Shown in pieces: positions 52,554-60,909 of a stretch of DNA of 64,000 bases. Positions within the stretch are counted from its first letter, which is position 1; every line of letters begins with the position of its first letter. The position numbers and the translations under genes were made by a program. This DNA is from an uncultured Clostridia bacterium (lineage in GTDB: Bacteria; Bacillota; Clostridia; Oscillospirales; Oscillospiraceae), in contig CAMHMZ010000005.1 of the NCBI GenBank assembly GCA_946186375.1, positions 1 through 64,000 of the forward strand. Reading direction: 5' to 3'. The notes under the pieces were generated by a model. The model saw only the letters and a list, made by a program, of their open reading frames with translations. It was not told the origin of the DNA and ran no database searches.

Positions 52554-54146
52554 TCAAGTAAAGTCGTCCAGGATGCCGCGCAGGCCCTCGCGCTCATAGA
52601 CGCCTCGGTACCAGGCCAGCTCCTCGGCGATGAGTCTGTCGATCACGCGCATGCCCAGCACCTCCACGGGCGCTTTGTCGTCCGTGAGGATCCTCCCGCC
52701 GCCGCTGTAGGGCTCAAGGCCCCCCGCCACGCGGACGGCCAGCGCGTCAAGCTCCGGATCCTCCAGACGCGCTCTCCCCTCCTCCAGCAGCTCCGTGACG
52801 TCCCGCTCGGCCGAGGCGAAGAGCTCGCGGTTCGTGCTGCCGGGCACGTCCACCGTCGCCACCCAGGGGAAAACGGAGGCGATCGTGTCGCAGAGATATT
52901 CGTTGATGCTGCCCTCGCCGTCGGAGTGCATGTTCATGTTCACGACCATCACGCCGCCCTCGGAGAGGTGCTCGCGCGCCATGGTGAAAAACTCCACAGA
53001 GCTCATCTGAAAGGGGATCGTAATGTCCTGATAGGCGTCGACCAGGATGACGTCGTACTTCGTATCGACCGCCTGCAGAAAGGCCCGGCCGTCATACTCC
53101 GTGACCTTCACGGCCTCGGGCATGTCGAAATACTCCCAGGCCAGGTCCGTGATCCTGCCGTCGATCTCCACGCCCTCGGCGCTGCTGCCCGGGAAATACC
53201 GCAGACACTGCCGCGCGTAGGTGCCGGTGCCGTTGCCGAGCACGAGAACGGAGGGAGCCTCCTTCCCGGCCATGACGGGCGCGGCGAGCGCGTAGTCGTA
53301 ATAGAGCCCCGTAAGGCCCTCGTCCTTCATTTTTACCGACTGCACGCCGAAGAGGACGTTCGTGGACAAAATGACCTTGCGCTCATCCTCCTTGACCTGC
53401 AGATAGTTGTACACCGACTCTCCCTCGTAGCTGAGGTCCTCCTCCCAGAAGGCGAAGGCCGTGCTGCGTCCGAAGACGAGGCAGAGGATAAAGAGGAGCA
53501 GACACACGATCACGGTGCGCAGTCCCTTTTTCGCGCTGAGGAAGAAAGCAAGGCCGATGAGCAGCAGGATGCCGGAAAAGATGAGGAAGGTCACCGCCGT
53601 GCCCACCGCCGGGATCGTGACGAAGGTCGGCAGGAAGGTGCCGAGGATGCTGCCCACGGTGTTGCAGGCGCCGAGGCGTCCCACCGTGCGCCCGCTGTCG
53701 TCCAGACTGTCGACGGCAGCCTTCACGAGCGAAGGCGTCACCGTGCCCAGCAGGAAGAGCGGGAAGACAAAGATCAGCATGCAGGAGGCGAAGGCCGCGA
53801 TCACGAGGAAATTGGTGCTGACCGAGAAGATCAGCAGCCCCGTGATGCCGAGGATGATGTATTTTCCCAGCACGGGGATCGCGGCGATCCAGACCGCCGC
53901 GATCAGGATCCGGCGGTAGAGCCGCGCGGGATCCGGGTTCTTGTCCGCGGCGCGCCCGCCGTAGAGGTTGCCGAGCGCCATGGCGATCATGATCGTGCCG
54001 ATAATGATCGTCCAGACGATCTGGGAGGAGCTGAAATACGGGGCCAGCAGGCGGCTGGCGCCGAGCTCCACCGCCATGACGGAGACGCCCGCAAAAAACT
54101 CGGTCACATAGAGGAAGAACTTGCTTTTGAGGATCTTGTATTCCAT
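52554..54146 (-). CDS. Membrane protein with spermidine-synthase-like domain
   Basis: A 530-residue protein. The first 215 residues form six or seven helices of MFS-like type (FFAGVSVMAVELGASRLLAP). The second half is a spermidine-synthase-like Rossmann domain: VLVLGNGTGTYARQ (nucleotide loop), AEGVEIDGRITDLA, and YDVILVDAYQD. Fused proteins of this layout are widespread but their product is uncertain; true polyamine synthesis is not implied. It begins 4 bases after the AtpI-like gene and is the last gene of the rlmB operon. Confidence 0.88.
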   Translation of the reverse strand: MEYKILKSKFFLYVTEFFAGVSVMAVELGASRLLAPYFSSSQIVWTIIIGTIMIAMALGNLYGGRAADKNPDPARLYRRILIAAVWIAAIPVLGKYIILGITGLLIFSVSTNFLVIAAFASCMLIFVFPLFLLGTVTPSLVKAAVDSLDDSGRTVGRLGACNTVGSILGTFLPTFVTIPAVGTAVTFLIFSGILLLIGLAFFLSAKKGLRTVIVCLLLFILCLVFGRSTAFAFWEEDLSYEGESVYNYLQVKEDERKVILSTNVLFGVQSVKMKDEGLTGLYYDYALAAPVMAGKEAPSVLVLGNGTGTYARQCLRYFPGSSAEGVEIDGRITDLAWEYFDMPEAVKVTEYDGRAFLQAVDTKYDVILVDAYQDITIPFQMSSVEFFTMAREHLSEGGVMVVNMNMHSDGEGSINEYLCDTIASVFPWVATVDVPGSTNRELFASAERDVTELLEEGRARLEDPELDALAVRVAGGLEPYSGGGRILTDDKAPVEVLGMRVIDRLIAEELAWYRGVYEREGLRGILDDFT

Positions 54147-54150
54147 CGGC

Positions 54151-54429
54151 TCATTTCCCTCCGGCCAGCCGAAAGCTGTAGACGATGGTGGTCATCGAAA
54201 GGCCCAGCGCCGTCCCGACAAGCACGAAGGTATAGGGCAGGGGCAGCAGCTCGCGCAGCAGGAACACGGCCGCGAAGGCGGCCAGATCCAGCGCCGTGCG
54301 CAGGACGTTGGCGCCCAGGAGGGCTTTGTCCTTCTGCTTTTTGAGCGCCCGGCGCATGATGAGCATATTCACAAGCCCCACCGCGGCGCCCCACACGGCG
54401 CCTGCGAGCACGGCAAGCACATAAGACAT
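54151..54429 (-). CDS. AtpI-like small membrane protein
   Basis: A 92-residue protein with three helices. A GAAVGLVNMLIMRRALKK segment near 14-31 and a final TFVLVGTALGLSMTTIV helix resemble ATP synthase subunit I proteins, but there is no ATP synthase gene here. AAAAAGGAG lies before the ATG. It sits between the P-type-ATPase-like protein and the spermidine-synthase-like protein, 15 and 4 bases away, so the three are one transcript. Confidence 0.6.
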   Translation of the reverse strand: MSYVLAVLAGAVWGAAVGLVNMLIMRRALKKQKDKALLGANVLRTALDLAAFAAVFLLRELLPLPYTFVLVGTALGLSMTTIVYSFRLAGGK

Positions 54430-54444
54430 GGTAATTACTCCTTT

Positions 54445-57411
54445 TTATCGCTCGAGCCGCAGGATCCGGCCCACCAGCGCCACCGGCACCGCCCACATCA
54501 GCATGAAGAAGAACAGGAAGGGCACGCCCACGCCGCCGACGCGCAGCAGCTGCACGAAGGCGGTGAGGATCCCGGCGATCATGCCGAGCACGGTGATGAT
54601 GAGGTTGGCGCGCGTGGCGACGTAGACGCTGCGCCCGATATCCGCCGTGTCGCTGAGCGGGCCGAGCCCGTCGCGGCAGACGACAGCCGCCACCTTGCTG
54701 TCCGGCCCCGGTGTGCCCTCGCTCATGGCGAAGCGCTCCACATAGGGCGGGAAGTCGTAGCCGTCGGTGGCGATGTCGAAGCTCTCGTGCAGCATGCTGG
54801 GCGTAATGTTGAAGTCGCGGATGGCGAACACCGGGTGCCGCCCGCTGCGCATGAGGCCGATCAGCGCGCGGCGCACCGCGGGCTGCGGATCGTACTTCAT
54901 ATTGAAGATGCCGTACAGCAGCCCGTCCACCGCCAGCAGAACGCTCGTACGGTTGACCAGACGGTAGGGGATGCGCACGTTCATCAGCTGCATCAGATCG
55001 GTGCTGCCGCAGAGGACAACGCGCGAGTCGATCACGCCGCGCATGCCGCCGCCGGGCAGATACTCGAAGTTTTCAATGCGGCGCATTTGGCCGCCGTTTT
55101 TCTCCATAAGCTGGCCAAAGCAGCTCGACACGCTGCTGCCGCAGGCCGTCAGCATGCTGCCGGCATAGGAGATGATGTCCACGGGATCGGCGTCGGCGAA
55201 AATACGGATCGTGTCGATCTCGACGCTGCCGTCCGGGAAGAGATCGCGGTCGGTGATGATGAGGTTTTTGCTCAGGCCGATGTCGCTGACGCCGGACCAG
55301 CCGGCCACCGCCGCGCCGCTCGGGAAGAGGCGCATGGAGCCCGTAAAGAAGGGCAGGGCAAAGCTCAGCAGCCCCGCGAAGGGCACCGCCGGGCACAGGA
55401 GCACCGACAGGATATAGAAGAAATCATGCACGTTGCGCTTGACCGCCGCCGTCACGAGCGCAAGCAGCAGCACCAGGGCCAGCACCGGCAGGCAGAGCTT
55501 GCGGAACATGGTCTCGTCGGGCGCGGCCTCCTCCGTGCGGCGCACGAAGCCCTTGAGAGGACGCACCGACTTGAGGAGCGTCACCTCGCCGTTTTTGACG
55601 TTGGTCTCGCCGGTCACGGTGTAGCTGCGGCGGGCAATGGCGGGCACACGCAGGCTCTTGCGCAGTCCGCGGCAGCTGAAGAGGCTCGCCGCGAGCACAC
55701 CTGCCAGGGAGAGTGAGGACAGCAGGCACAGCGGCATATGCGTGGCCGAAAAGCCGTCGACGCCGGAGAAGATCGCGTCCACCGAGGTCACGAAGCAGGC
55801 GAGCACCGCCATGGTGTCAAGGCCGGGCTTCCCCCGCACGCCGTTCAGAACGCCGCCGGTGAACACATCCAGGCACAGGAGCGTCACGCCCAGCTGCAGC
55901 GCCAGGCACATGAAGCTCGCCACCGCCGTGTCGTTGAGCCGCCCGGTCACGGGCAGGCCCAGGCTGATCCAGCCCATGACCGCCAGCAGCGCCAGCGAGA
56001 TGCGCAGGCGCAGGCGCATGGAGCGGATATGGCTGCCATAATAGCGGCTGGCAAAGGAGGGCGCGACCTCGTCGCCGAGATCTTCCTCCTCGTCGTCCAT
56101 GGTCAGCGTGCCGCGCACGCCGCCCCGCAGACGGTATAAAAAGCTTGTTAGGATCGAAAAGATATATTCCTTGAAGCTGGAGGGGAAGAAATCCTGGTCC
56201 CGCAGCGCGGCGCCCTCGTTTTCCTCCTCGCTCGCGGCGTCCTCCTCGTCCTCCGGCGTGTCCTCCGCATAGATGGCGGGGCTGGCGCTGGTGTCAGGGA
56301 AGACGACGGCGTATTCGCGCCGGGCGGCCGCCGTGCGGCTCCAGGCGGGCTTGAGATCGTCGTCCTCGTCAGAGACTTCCGCGGCGGGCTTTTTATCTTC
56401 CTCCGCGCTCGCCTTCCCCCCGCTGCGGCGCTCACTGCGCGCCGGGATCGGGCGCACCTTTTCCCGCCGCTCGCGCCTTGTCCGGTACTCGGGCTCGGGC
56501 GTCGGTTCCTCCGGGGCGGAAGCGGACGTCTGTTCCGTCGCTTCCTCCGGGGCGGGCTCCGCCGCGCTCTTGTTTTCCTCCGGCGGCGTCACGGGCGCGC
56601 CGGTGTACCAGTGCGTTTTCGCTTCGCGCAGGATCTCGTCCACGTCGTGCGCCGGCTCCTGCGTCGGCTCCTCCGGGGCGCTCGGCGCCTCCGGCTCTTC
56701 TTCGCCGGGCAGGACCAGCTCCTGCGTCTTGGGAAAGCTGATCTTGCGCGCGGCCTCCCGGCGAGCCAGCTCCTTGTCCTTCTCGGTCTGCCGCTCTCTG
56801 ATGAGCGTCTGGCGTATGCGGGCAAAGAAGCCGGGCTTCTCCTCCGCTTTCGGCTCGGTCTCGTCTTCTGCGTCCGACGCCTCCTCCGGCGTATAGCTCG
56901 ACACATATTCGCTCGGCGCATGCGGGGTGTATTTCTCGTCGGCGCTCTGGTCGATATGCTTTCCCGCATAGCTGACTCCGCTCCGGCGGGGGCGGCGATC
57001 GACATGAAAGCGGCTGTCGAAGCTCGGCTCACCCGGATACCGCGGCGCCTCCTCCGGCTCGGTCTCGACCTCGGTCTCGCCATAGTCGGCCATGAAGGCG
57101 CGGATCTCCTCCTCGCTCGGCAGCGAGGAGCGCCTGCGCTCGCTGAAAGACCAGCTGCTCTGTGTCTCTTTCTTTTCTTTGCGGGACTCCGGCTCCGTTT
57201 TTTTCTCCGGCTCCGGCTGCTTCTCCGGCGCGGGCTCGATCTTCGGCGCCGCCTGGAATATACGGGTCTCGTCCGGGCCCGGCTGTCTGTCTATGGCGGG
57301 CGCAGCTGCCCCGCTGTCAGAGTGAAACTCTGCCAGAATATCCTCCACGCTGTATCCCTCTCCGCTTACTTGATCCAGATCCAATTCGAGATCCATCCCG
57401 TTAAGATCCAT
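54445..57411 (-). CDS. Degenerate P-type-ATPase-like membrane protein with long acidic N-terminus
   Basis: A 988-residue protein. About 460 N-terminal residues are low-complexity, rich in Glu, Pro, Ala and Arg. Then the order of a P1B-type ATPase follows: helices including KPGLDTMAVLACFVTSVDAIF (like MDxLVALG...), a short loop with TGETNVKNG, two helices with a CPA box (Cys673), a cytoplasmic P/N region, and final helices. Every catalytic motif is changed: DKTGT reads TDRDLFPDG (Asp721), TGD reads AIRDFN (Asp866) and GDGxND reads CRDGLGP (Asp914). Most of the A-domain is missing. ATP-driven transport is therefore unlikely. The ATG at 57411 has AAAAGGG 9 bases upstream; a TTG three codons earlier is less likely. 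Confidence 0.8.
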   Translation of the reverse strand: MDLNGMDLELDLDQVSGEGYSVEDILAEFHSDSGAAAPAIDRQPGPDETRIFQAAPKIEPAPEKQPEPEKKTEPESRKEKKETQSSWSFSERRRSSLPSEEEIRAFMADYGETEVETEPEEAPRYPGEPSFDSRFHVDRRPRRSGVSYAGKHIDQSADEKYTPHAPSEYVSSYTPEEASDAEDETEPKAEEKPGFFARIRQTLIRERQTEKDKELARREAARKISFPKTQELVLPGEEEPEAPSAPEEPTQEPAHDVDEILREAKTHWYTGAPVTPPEENKSAAEPAPEEATEQTSASAPEEPTPEPEYRTRRERREKVRPIPARSERRSGGKASAEEDKKPAAEVSDEDDDLKPAWSRTAAARREYAVVFPDTSASPAIYAEDTPEDEEDAASEEENEGAALRDQDFFPSSFKEYIFSILTSFLYRLRGGVRGTLTMDDEEEDLGDEVAPSFASRYYGSHIRSMRLRLRISLALLAVMGWISLGLPVTGRLNDTAVASFMCLALQLGVTLLCLDVFTGGVLNGVRGKPGLDTMAVLACFVTSVDAIFSGVDGFSATHMPLCLLSSLSLAGVLAASLFSCRGLRKSLRVPAIARRSYTVTGETNVKNGEVTLLKSVRPLKGFVRRTEEAAPDETMFRKLCLPVLALVLLLALVTAAVKRNVHDFFYILSVLLCPAVPFAGLLSFALPFFTGSMRLFPSGAAVAGWSGVSDIGLSKNLIITDRDLFPDGSVEIDTIRIFADADPVDIISYAGSMLTACGSSVSSCFGQLMEKNGGQMRRIENFEYLPGGGMRGVIDSRVVLCGSTDLMQLMNVRIPYRLVNRTSVLLAVDGLLYGIFNMKYDPQPAVRRALIGLMRSGRHPVFAIRDFNITPSMLHESFDIATDGYDFPPYVERFAMSEGTPGPDSKVAAVVCRDGLGPLSDTADIGRSVYVATRANLIITVLGMIAGILTAFVQLLRVGGVGVPFLFFFMLMWAVPVALVGRILRLER

Positions 57412-57450
57412 TTCAACCAACCCTTTTGGCCGTCTGATTCGGCCTGACTG

Positions 57451-58209
57451 TCAGCTTCTCTGTCTCATGACCTCATAGAGCACGATGCCGGCCGCCACCG
57501 AGGCGTTCAGGGAGCTCACGCGCCCCTTCATCGGCAGGCTCACGATATGGTCGCAGCTCTCGCGCACGAGGCGGCCCATCCCGTCTCCCTCCGAGCCGAT
57601 CACGATCGCGACCGCGCCGGAAAAATCGGTGTGCCACAGCTCGCTCGTCCCGTCGGCGGCGGTACCGAAGACCCAGAGGCCGCGCTCCTTGAGCTCCTTG
57701 ATCGCCGCGGGCAGGTTCGGCACCCGCGCCACGGCCATATGCTCGGCCGCGCCCGCGCTGGCCTTGTCCACGACGGCCGTCAGCCCCGCGCTGCGGCGCT
57801 TGGGGATGATGACGCCGTGTGCGCCCGCACACTCCGCCGAGCGGATGATGGCGCCGAGATTGTGCCCGTCGCTGATTTCGTCGCAGACGACGACAAAGGG
57901 CTCCTCTCCGCGCTCGGCCGCGACGGCGAGGATATCGTCGATGCTCACGGTCTCCTTCACGGCGGCCAGCGCGATCACGCCCTGATGGGCGTGCGTGCGG
58001 CTCATGGCATCGAGCTTGCGCCGGTCGCACTCAACGACGACGAGGCCCAGCTCCCGCGCGCGAGAGGCGATATGCCCCAGCGTCCGGTCCACCTCGCCGC
58101 GCGCGAGATAGATCTTGTCGATCGCACGCCCGGCGCGCAGCGCCTCGATGACGGCGTTGCGGCCCTCGATCAGCTCGTTTTCAAGCCCAAAGCTCTTTTC
58201 TTCGACCAT
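57451..58209 (-). CDS. rlmB: TrmH-family 23S rRNA 2'-O-methyltransferase RlmB
   Basis: A 252-residue SPOUT methyltransferase. The N-terminal substrate domain begins ENELIEGRNAVIEALRAG. The three motifs are present: NLGAIIRSAECAG, IVIGSEGDGM and VSLPMKGRVSSLNASVAAGI (the last forms the SAM knot). RlmB-type enzymes methylate a ribose in 23S rRNA. AAGGAG lies 6 bases before the ATG. It is the first gene of an operon that continues 39 bases on with the P-type-ATPase-like gene. Confidence 0.93.
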   Translation of the reverse strand: MVEEKSFGLENELIEGRNAVIEALRAGRAIDKIYLARGEVDRTLGHIASRARELGLVVVECDRRKLDAMSRTHAHQGVIALAAVKETVSIDDILAVAAERGEEPFVVVCDEISDGHNLGAIIRSAECAGAHGVIIPKRRSAGLTAVVDKASAGAAEHMAVARVPNLPAAIKELKERGLWVFGTAADGTSELWHTDFSGAVAIVIGSEGDGMGRLVRESCDHIVSLPMKGRVSSLNASVAAGIVLYEVMRQRS

Positions 58210-58364
58210 CCCTGTCTCCTTAATGAAACAATAATTCAAAATATAGTGTAACACAGCTTTTACAAAACGGAAAGAACAAATTTCGTTTTTTACAGTTTTT
58301 TTATAGACTTCGCGCCCGGAAACGGGTATAGTATGGATGATAATACATTGGAGGAAACTGTTCC

Positions 58365-59385: not shown

Positions 59386-60909
59386 ATGAGATCAAATAAA
59401 CTGCAGTCTTTGCTTTCCCTGCTTCTGGTCGTGCTGCTGCTGGGCTCGCTGTCCGGCGCGGCCTTTGCCGACCAGGACTATGACCTGAGCGTCGACGAGC
59501 GCGTGGACGAATGCCTCGCGGACGCGGAGGACGGAGAAGTCTCCGCCGTCGCGATCACCGGCGGCTCCTGCCCCGGCCTCGGCCTGTATATGAAAGACGG
59601 CTCGGCCTACATCGGCGGCACGCCCTCCGAGGCGGGCGACTTCACAATGACGGTGCGCATCAGCTATGCCGACGGCACCGAGGAGACCATGACGCTCAAC
59701 TTCACCGTGGAAGGTGAGGAGGAGCCTGAGGAGACTGAAGAGCCCGAGGAGACCGAGGAGCCCGAGGAGACCCCCGAACCGACCGAGACTCCGAAGCCGA
59801 CCGAGACCCCCGCGCCGACCGAGACCGACGTCCCCATCGCCGAGACCGAGACGCCTCAGCCGAAAACACTCAAGATCACCAAGGATCCTACCGGCGAGAC
59901 TGTGATCGAGGGCGGCTCCGCGATGTTCATCGCGCGTGCCGACAACGCCACCGACATCACCTGGCGCCTCGTCAGCCCCGACGGCAACACCTTCTACCGC
60001 TGCGCGGACGCGCCCAGCTACTTCAGCGGTCTGCAGGTCTCCGGTCTCGGCACCGAGACGCTTGTGCTCAGCAACATCCCTCTGACGCTCAACGGCTGGA
60101 AGGCCGACGCCGTCTTTAACGGCGAGGGCGGCCCTCTGACCACGAAGGGCGCTCTGATCACCGTCAACAAGTCCCAGCTCACCATGCCCAGCATCAGCCT
60201 GCAGCCGCAGGACGCCACGGGCACCGTCGGCAGCCCCGTCACCCTGCGCGTGGCCGCCAGCACCAATGAGGGCGTGCTCCATTACCAGTGGTACCGCTCC
60301 GACTCGAATCGCAACAGCGGCGGACAGGCGATCGTCGGCGCCACCGGCGACAGCTTCACGCCGCCCGAAACCGAGGGCACCGTTTACTACTACGCGGTCA
60401 TCTGGGCCGTGAGCGGCGAGCGCAGCAGCACCGCTATCAGCTCCGCTGCCGCTGCCGTGACCTACGCCGCGGCCGCCCCGACCCCGACGCCCGAGCCCAC
60501 ACCGACGCCCGAGCCCACACCGACGCCCGCGCCGACCCAGACGCCTGCGCCGACCCAGACGCCCGATGAGACCGAAACGCCCGTCGAAACCCCGGCGGAG
60601 ACCCCCGCCGCTTCCCGTGACGACGGCTCCGGCTCCCGCCGCCGCAGCAGCGCCGCGCTGACCGCCGCCGCCATCATCCTGCTGCTCGGCGCGCTGGCCT
60701 CCGTGATCGTCTATATCATCCTGCGCCGCCGCGATCAGGCCGCGGAGGAGGAATACGACGAGGATCTCGACGACGATCTCGACGATGACCTTGACGGCGA
60801 CCTTGACGAGAGTCCCGACGACGATCTCGACGAAAAGTTCGATCTGGATCTCGGCATCGGCCGTGACAAGGATATCGACCGGCAAGACCGGAACCGCTTC
60901 AAGAAATAA
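59386..60909 (+). CDS. Surface protein with Ig-like domains, one membrane helix and acidic tail
   Basis: A 507-residue protein: signal peptide (about 1-28), a domain to about 110 ending TLNFTVEG, a Glu/Pro/Thr linker, and Ig-like domains to about 365 (ITKDPTGETVIEGG, then LQPQDATGTVGSPVTL and HYQWYRSD, typical of Ig-like folds). A PTP linker leads to a helix near 423-443 and a 60-residue cytoplasmic tail of (D/E)DLDDDLDxDL repeats. There is no LPxTG-like signal, so it is anchored by its helix. The tail could bind cations or basic proteins. Ligand unknown. Confidence 0.82.
   Translation: MRSNKLQSLLSLLLVVLLLGSLSGAAFADQDYDLSVDERVDECLADAEDGEVSAVAITGGSCPGLGLYMKDGSAYIGGTPSEAGDFTMTVRISYADGTEETMTLNFTVEGEEEPEETEEPEETEEPEETPEPTETPKPTETPAPTETDVPIAETETPQPKTLKITKDPTGETVIEGGSAMFIARADNATDITWRLVSPDGNTFYRCADAPSYFSGLQVSGLGTETLVLSNIPLTLNGWKADAVFNGEGGPLTTKGALITVNKSQLTMPSISLQPQDATGTVGSPVTLRVAASTNEGVLHYQWYRSDSNRNSGGQAIVGATGDSFTPPETEGTVYYYAVIWAVSGERSSTAISSAAAAVTYAAAAPTPTPEPTPTPEPTPTPAPTQTPAPTQTPDETETPVETPAETPAASRDDGSGSRRRSSAALTAAAIILLLGALASVIVYIILRRRDQAAEEEYDEDLDDDLDDDLDGDLDESPDDDLDEKFDLDLGIGRDKDIDRQDRNRFKK

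Follow-up and report, generated by a model that had tools for sequence, protein, structure and literature searches.

P-type pumps, among them the P1B heavy-metal ATPases CopA and ZntA, need the DKTGT, TGD and GDGxND motifs for their phosphorylation cycle, and in their P domain the DKTGT and TGD loops face each other. GpsB–PBP and the FtsZ tail peptide are bacterial peptide-docking systems that gather envelope proteins. Both kinds of system bear on a gene in the 64,000-nucleotide stretch of DNA analysed here (the window), which a preliminary description had taken for a P1B pump with all catalytic motifs replaced. This gene (54445..57411, minus strand) encodes 988 residues in a frame that is intact over all 988 codons, as had been claimed, with a possible upstream TTG start at 57420. 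Residues 1–448 (56068..57411, minus strand) form the N-terminal region, for which the earlier account proposed a long acidic disordered segment; its acidity and length stand (about 450 residues, 25% Asp plus Glu), while disorder is probable, as judged by composition. Residues 449–988 (54448..56067, minus strand) form a membrane and P/N-domain body in which simple hydropathy predicts eight membrane segments between residues 471 and 979. The same method gives six to nine segments per row in 34 family rows and six to eight in genuine pumps.

The window protein alone gives a weak NCBIfam match to the heavy-metal P-type ATPase model TIGR01525 (E = 5e-5, 22.3 bits), short of the curated cut-off of 346 bits, and Pfam returns no match for it or for any of the 34 family members. 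We aligned the C-terminal bodies of these 34 members, drawn from 45 orthologues of which ten close copies and one split gene were omitted, to give alignment A1. Compared with the PDB, the A1 profile matched the copper pump 3rfu at 3.4e-31 as well as other P1B pumps, and in hhalign six genuine P1B pumps from the lineage aligned to the family at 99.5% over 500 columns. Taken singly, 27 of the 34 members match CopA and 26 match TIGR01525 at 0.01. The protein is a homologue of P1B-type ATPases, with its membrane, P and N regions matched by profile, and the claim of a P1B architecture is borne out by the hydropathy-predicted segments and this homology. The glycine segment of the N domain, GGGMRGVIDSRVVLCGSTDLM (54991..55053, minus strand), retains G789 in 33 and G802 in all 34 rows.

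Loss of the catalytic motifs extends through the family. The window protein reads TDRDLFP where DKTGT is expected, as reported earlier, and DKTGT is found in none of the 34 aligned rows; an orthologue with the intact motif, which would have pointed to decay, was looked for and is likewise absent from all 34. GDGxND is missing from every row. Replacement of TGD by IRDFN holds for the motif as such, as no row has Gly at its glycine column, but the Asp of TGD survives in 33 of 34. The HP histidine of the N domain is found in 0 of 34 rows, with the register taken from the profile alignment. In the same alignment the actuator region is mostly deletion, in agreement with the claim that most of this domain is gone, and the TGES motif is absent with it. 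A TGE triplet (residues 600–602) lies in the shortened actuator loop of eight of the 34 rows, all of the genus and including the window protein; the profile alignment does not put it on TGES, and it could be either a chance occurrence or what is left of the actuator motif. Survival of the motif III lysine was ruled out, since that region falls in the deletion.

Other parts of the preliminary description had to be revised. The sequence CRDGLGP (54658..54678, minus strand), previously read as a substitute for GDGxND, is paired by the profile alignment with the segment VLMDDDPLKI just before M5, while the GDGxND stretch itself is a deletion. The distance from the Asp of TGD to the start of M5 is 68–74 residues in all 34 rows, compared with 103–108, counted from the T of TGD, in five genuine pumps measured of six, and the pre-M5 region of the family is some 30–35 residues short. 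With this distance shortened and the GDGxND segment deleted, the motif spacing that appeared to be kept is partly coincidence. The CPA box (Cys673; 55387..55395, minus strand) is present in the window protein but is not a family feature: CP occupies this M4 CPx site in four of 34 rows, which rules out Cys673 as a conserved metal site, and a proline lies three residues further on in 30. Having lost the phosphorylation loop, the GDGxND segment, the HP histidine and the bulk of the actuator region, the pseudo-pump is, judging from the established mechanism of P-type pumps, unable to run the phosphorylation cycle.

A different conserved signature occupies the old active site in the 34-row alignment, namely Dx[DE], a hydrophobic residue and [FY]P, plus DxN. 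In the window protein these correspond to TDRDLFP at the former DKTGT site (D721, D723, F725 and P726; 55234..55254, minus strand), with D in 31, D/E in 32, F/Y in 33 and P in 30 rows, and to DFN at the former TGD site (D866 and N868; 54808..54816, minus strand), with D in 33 and N in 30. The conservation of the TDRD positions across orthologues, which the preliminary description had put forward as a check, is found at D721 and at D/E723. In P-type pumps these loops lie opposite one another within the P domain, so D721, D/E723, D866 and N868 probably form one pocket.

We searched 393 genomes of the class with the family profile and scored the three best candidates per genome. Of the 22 genomes from the order, including that of the window, 21 gave near full-length matches (241–736 bits), the miss being G344. 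Outside the order, none of the matches listed is near full-length; they cover the P/N region only, at no more than 133 bits, and we take them for genuine pumps. In a tree with long branches and a midpoint root only, a branch supported at 100/100 sets the pseudo-pump family apart. Long open frames persist across the order at about 20% identity. The dN/dS ratio is 0.137 between the window gene and its nearest relative (G004) and 0.164 between G019 and G023, with higher values of 0.37–0.48 relative to three more distant genus members. The pseudo-pump is a conserved family, known to date from a single bacterial order. The earlier proposal of a recruited P1B-type ATPase fares well as regards a non-catalytic role, which is well supported by altered sites conserved across the order, a single clade and the lack of DKTGT in all 34 rows; the sensor, scaffold and assembly-factor functions that it named are candidate roles.

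One conserved neighbour was found. The 23S rRNA 2'-O-methyltransferase gene rlmB (57451..58254, minus strand) lies directly upstream of the pseudo-pump, in the same orientation, in 19 of 20 order-level loci, while other neighbours vary; it is also upstream in 33 of 34 further loci, which include the same or very close genomes and of which the exception begins at a contig edge. In the set L265–L284 it precedes the pseudo-pump in all 20 loci. In L039 an Obg GTPase gene takes the place of rlmB. An EF-G-like gene lies directly downstream in four of the 20 order-level loci (L041, L042, L045 and L057; identified by Pfam in L041 only). The preliminary description had also placed two downstream genes in the same operon, a small membrane protein of 92 residues that it labelled AtpI-like (54151..54429, minus strand) and a fused MFS/spermidine-synthase-like membrane protein (52554..54146, minus strand). 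These are found in one of 28 genus loci with a downstream flank of at most 1.5 kb, less in some, where they lie beside the copy of the nearest relative, and in none of the 20 order-level loci; 20 further loci in this search held almost no downstream sequence. The operon claim is therefore retained for rlmB, which adjoins the gene and is conserved, but ruled out beyond it. Elsewhere in the window, an open frame at 59386–60909 (plus strand) encodes 507 residues; inspected by eye, the protein begins with a signal-like sequence, has a hydrophobic segment close to its C-terminus and carries a repetitive tail rich in Asp.

The acidic N-terminus of the window protein carries a putative docking motif, YSVEDILAEF, at residues 20–29 (57325..57354, minus strand). 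We defined the tail motif as [FY]S[VLI][DE]DILxE[FY] and used a looser definition to count it in the last 560 residues before the body. Thirty-eight copies were found in 31 of 58 N-termini, compared with a mean of 0.011 and a maximum of 1 in 1000 shuffles, a contrast that is overstated because the motif definition was drawn from the counted sequences. Seven of the 31 motif-bearing pseudo-pumps have two copies in one N-terminus. By eye, the N-terminus of L123/L271 (G015) contains several imperfect copies (YSVDEILNEF, YSLRNILKDY, FSFRDILEEY, FAFHDILDEF and FRDILREF). The motif shows features typical of a self-capping helix, namely a Ser/Thr cap followed by acidic residues, and hydrophobic residues both ahead of the cap and farther down the sequence. 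The suggestion that the N-terminus may serve as an interaction platform gains support from this conserved short motif. The motif as defined is absent from 27 of the 58 N-termini, and in the L048 pseudo-pump only 19 residues precede the body, which implies a role for the body that does not depend on the motif.

The same motif occurs on the cytoplasmic tails of other, unrelated envelope proteins. A DNA-pattern scan of 81 genomes of the genus gave 63 matches in 53 genomes, and the reversed pattern gave none. Thirty of these matches were made into loci: 20 are signal peptidase II (LspA) by BLAST, three are contig-cut C-terminal tails like those of LspA, four are pseudo-pumps (three by BLAST, one by place), and the others are one glycosidase, one O-antigen-ligase-like protein that matches internally and one unreadable locus. 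In all 19 genus LspA tails measured the motif is at the extreme C-terminus with only one residue, K or R, beyond it, and the tail before it has a median length of 217 residues and is rich in Ala, Glu and Pro. The peptide FSLDDILAEFK is one such LspA tail carrying the motif, and the LspA of the window's own genome (L164) has a long acidic tail, of a kind common in the genus, that ends in FDLEDILNEFK. The motif is also found near the N-terminus of three other kinds of protein, all identified by Pfam: a sortase, the permease of an ABC-2 transporter and a phosphodiester glycosidase for which a membrane anchor is predicted. All 12 phosphodiester-glycosidase places in the window's genome lack it. 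The O-antigen-ligase-like match (L112 from G003; Pfam on L112 only) has an internal FTIDEIMAEY, with like matches in G016, G029, G523 and G550, which may be chance or a motif variant. Matches of the form TVEDILEEL, which we take to be CorC-like, were set aside from the motif carriers.

Across the order, a motif scan of 98 genomes gave 38 matches in 31 genomes, with six for the reversed control. Nineteen of the 38 were assigned to pseudo-pump N-termini (on the basis of BLAST, of place or, for G463 and G451, of likeness to G039), one is LspA and one is ABC-2-exporter-like (L200, by likeness to L158); the remaining 17, not identified singly, were taken for background. None of 23 readable order-wide LspA proteins ends in the motif (30 loci out of 45 matches in 44 genomes), and the LspA tails seen to end in the motif all come from the genus or from a few relatives. 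A genome-contig scan yielded 22 loci, with 12 pseudo-pumps (nine by BLAST; three contig-cut, recognized by rlmB directly upstream and a similar N-terminus), three LspA or LspA-like tails, one glycosidase, one exporter and one sortase; two more lie in unrelated phyla (Alkalinema and Myxococcota), and two, one of them from Cloacimonadota, are without the motif in protein form. A near full-length pseudo-pump was present in each of the six genomes checked that have a non-pump motif carrier (279–740 bits), and in neither of the two unrelated-phylum genomes matched by the motif pattern. By a looser pattern, three of these six co-occurring pseudo-pumps have a motif-like stretch, and one other is cut by a contig end. 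The presence of the motif on unrelated envelope enzymes suggests that the dead pump may now act as an anchor or sensor.

Several other explanations were weighed. The missing catalytic motifs, together with broken frames (a stop or a split) in three orthologues, G016 (L029), G057 (L045) and G047 (L055), which may be assembly error or local decay, could indicate a decaying pseudogene. We regard this as exceedingly improbable and ruled out by the long frames kept across the order, the dN/dS of 0.14 to the nearest relative, the conserved new signature and the single clade. Residual chemistry at the old site, with the Asp pair acting as the DxD of a HAD phosphatase or accepting phosphate from a small donor, would fit the conservation of D721, D/E723 and D866 and the TGE triplet of the eight rows, but appears quite improbable. 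The DxD/E of HAD phosphatases is conserved and their motif IV region deleted, and the register at motif I is uncertain by one residue, such that D721 falls either on the phosphorylated Asp, if a one-residue gap is allowed as in the MAFFT alignment, or on the next residue, the Lys of DKTGT, as in the gapless profile alignments. The lack of GDGxND in all 34 rows, each short in this region, also argues against catalysis.

It is improbable, too, that the link to rlmB reflects a membrane-based function in translation or in the assembly of ribosomes. The order of rlmB and pseudo-pump is kept while other neighbours change, and the EF-G-like and Obg genes beside some copies would fit such a role; however, the other motif carriers are envelope proteins, and the adjacency may be co-regulation only. 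For the tail motif itself, a degradation tag or a self-pairing helix, in place of a docking site for a shared receptor, seems rather unlikely. The genus LspA presents the motif at the very C-terminus with a single K or R after it, as in many degradation tags, and two copies are possible in one tail. Against a tag, the motif lies near the N-terminus in the pseudo-pump, glycosidase, exporter and sortase, which implies no dependence on a free C-terminus.

Our tentative preference, held with slightly less than even confidence, is for an ATP-independent membrane scaffold or sensor whose tail motif docks on a common cytoplasmic receptor and whose remodelled pocket binds a ligand. The pseudo-pump would be embedded in the membrane without ATP turnover. 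The motif, with its Ser/Thr helix cap, an acidic residue two or three positions on and a hydrophobic staple, would form a short helix, and this helix would dock on the receptor. The receptor would then bring LspA together with the pseudo-pump, joined in some lineages by the sortase, ABC-2 exporter or phosphodiester glycosidase. Binding of a ligand or divalent ion by the P-domain pocket (D721, D/E723, D866 and N868) could provide the sensing or assembly signal. The pseudo-pump would be either the hub or the most constant client of the motif receptor. A stronger version, in which the pseudo-pump itself is the hub and its retired nucleotide pocket is the receptor for the DILxE helix, of its own tail in cis and of the LspA, sortase and exporter tails in trans, is very doubtful; if true, a dead ion pump would organise envelope maturation across a whole bacterial order.

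A literature search found no description of a pseudo-enzyme form of P-type ATPases, with a broader query only partly surveyed, and none of a tail motif grouping envelope enzymes in gut bacteria, searched by motif letters with a superficial wider query. An order-wide pseudo-enzyme family would widen the known roles of the P-type ATPase superfamily, and the motif that the tails have in common suggests how gut bacteria may group their envelope enzymes, through a putative receptor that could be sought with two short peptides.

The pseudo-pump shares with the P1B heavy-metal ATPases (CopA/ZntA; TIGR01525, PRK10671; PDB 3rfu) its membrane topology, P/N-domain profile homology and N-domain glycines. 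It differs from them in lacking DKTGT, TGD (apart from its Asp), GDGxND, the HP histidine and a conserved CPx, in its shortened A and P domains, and in having a long acidic N-terminus instead of their metal-binding domains. The genus has a second degenerate P1B pump (G000:C12:27858-29960; L033/L245), likewise a P1B homologue with catalytic residues lost, in the same genomes. Unlike the pseudo-pump clade, this family has a separate origin within P1B in the tree and retains KTGT and TGD, and the A domain in the window's copy; the phosphorylated Asp is S, E or G in the copies read (SKTGT, EKTGT and GKTGT), while two relatives still have DKTGT. Similar to the GpsB–PBP and FtsZ tail peptide systems, in which short motifs on disordered cytoplasmic tails gather envelope proteins, the pseudo-pump family would use a short tail motif, although the motif itself differs from theirs.
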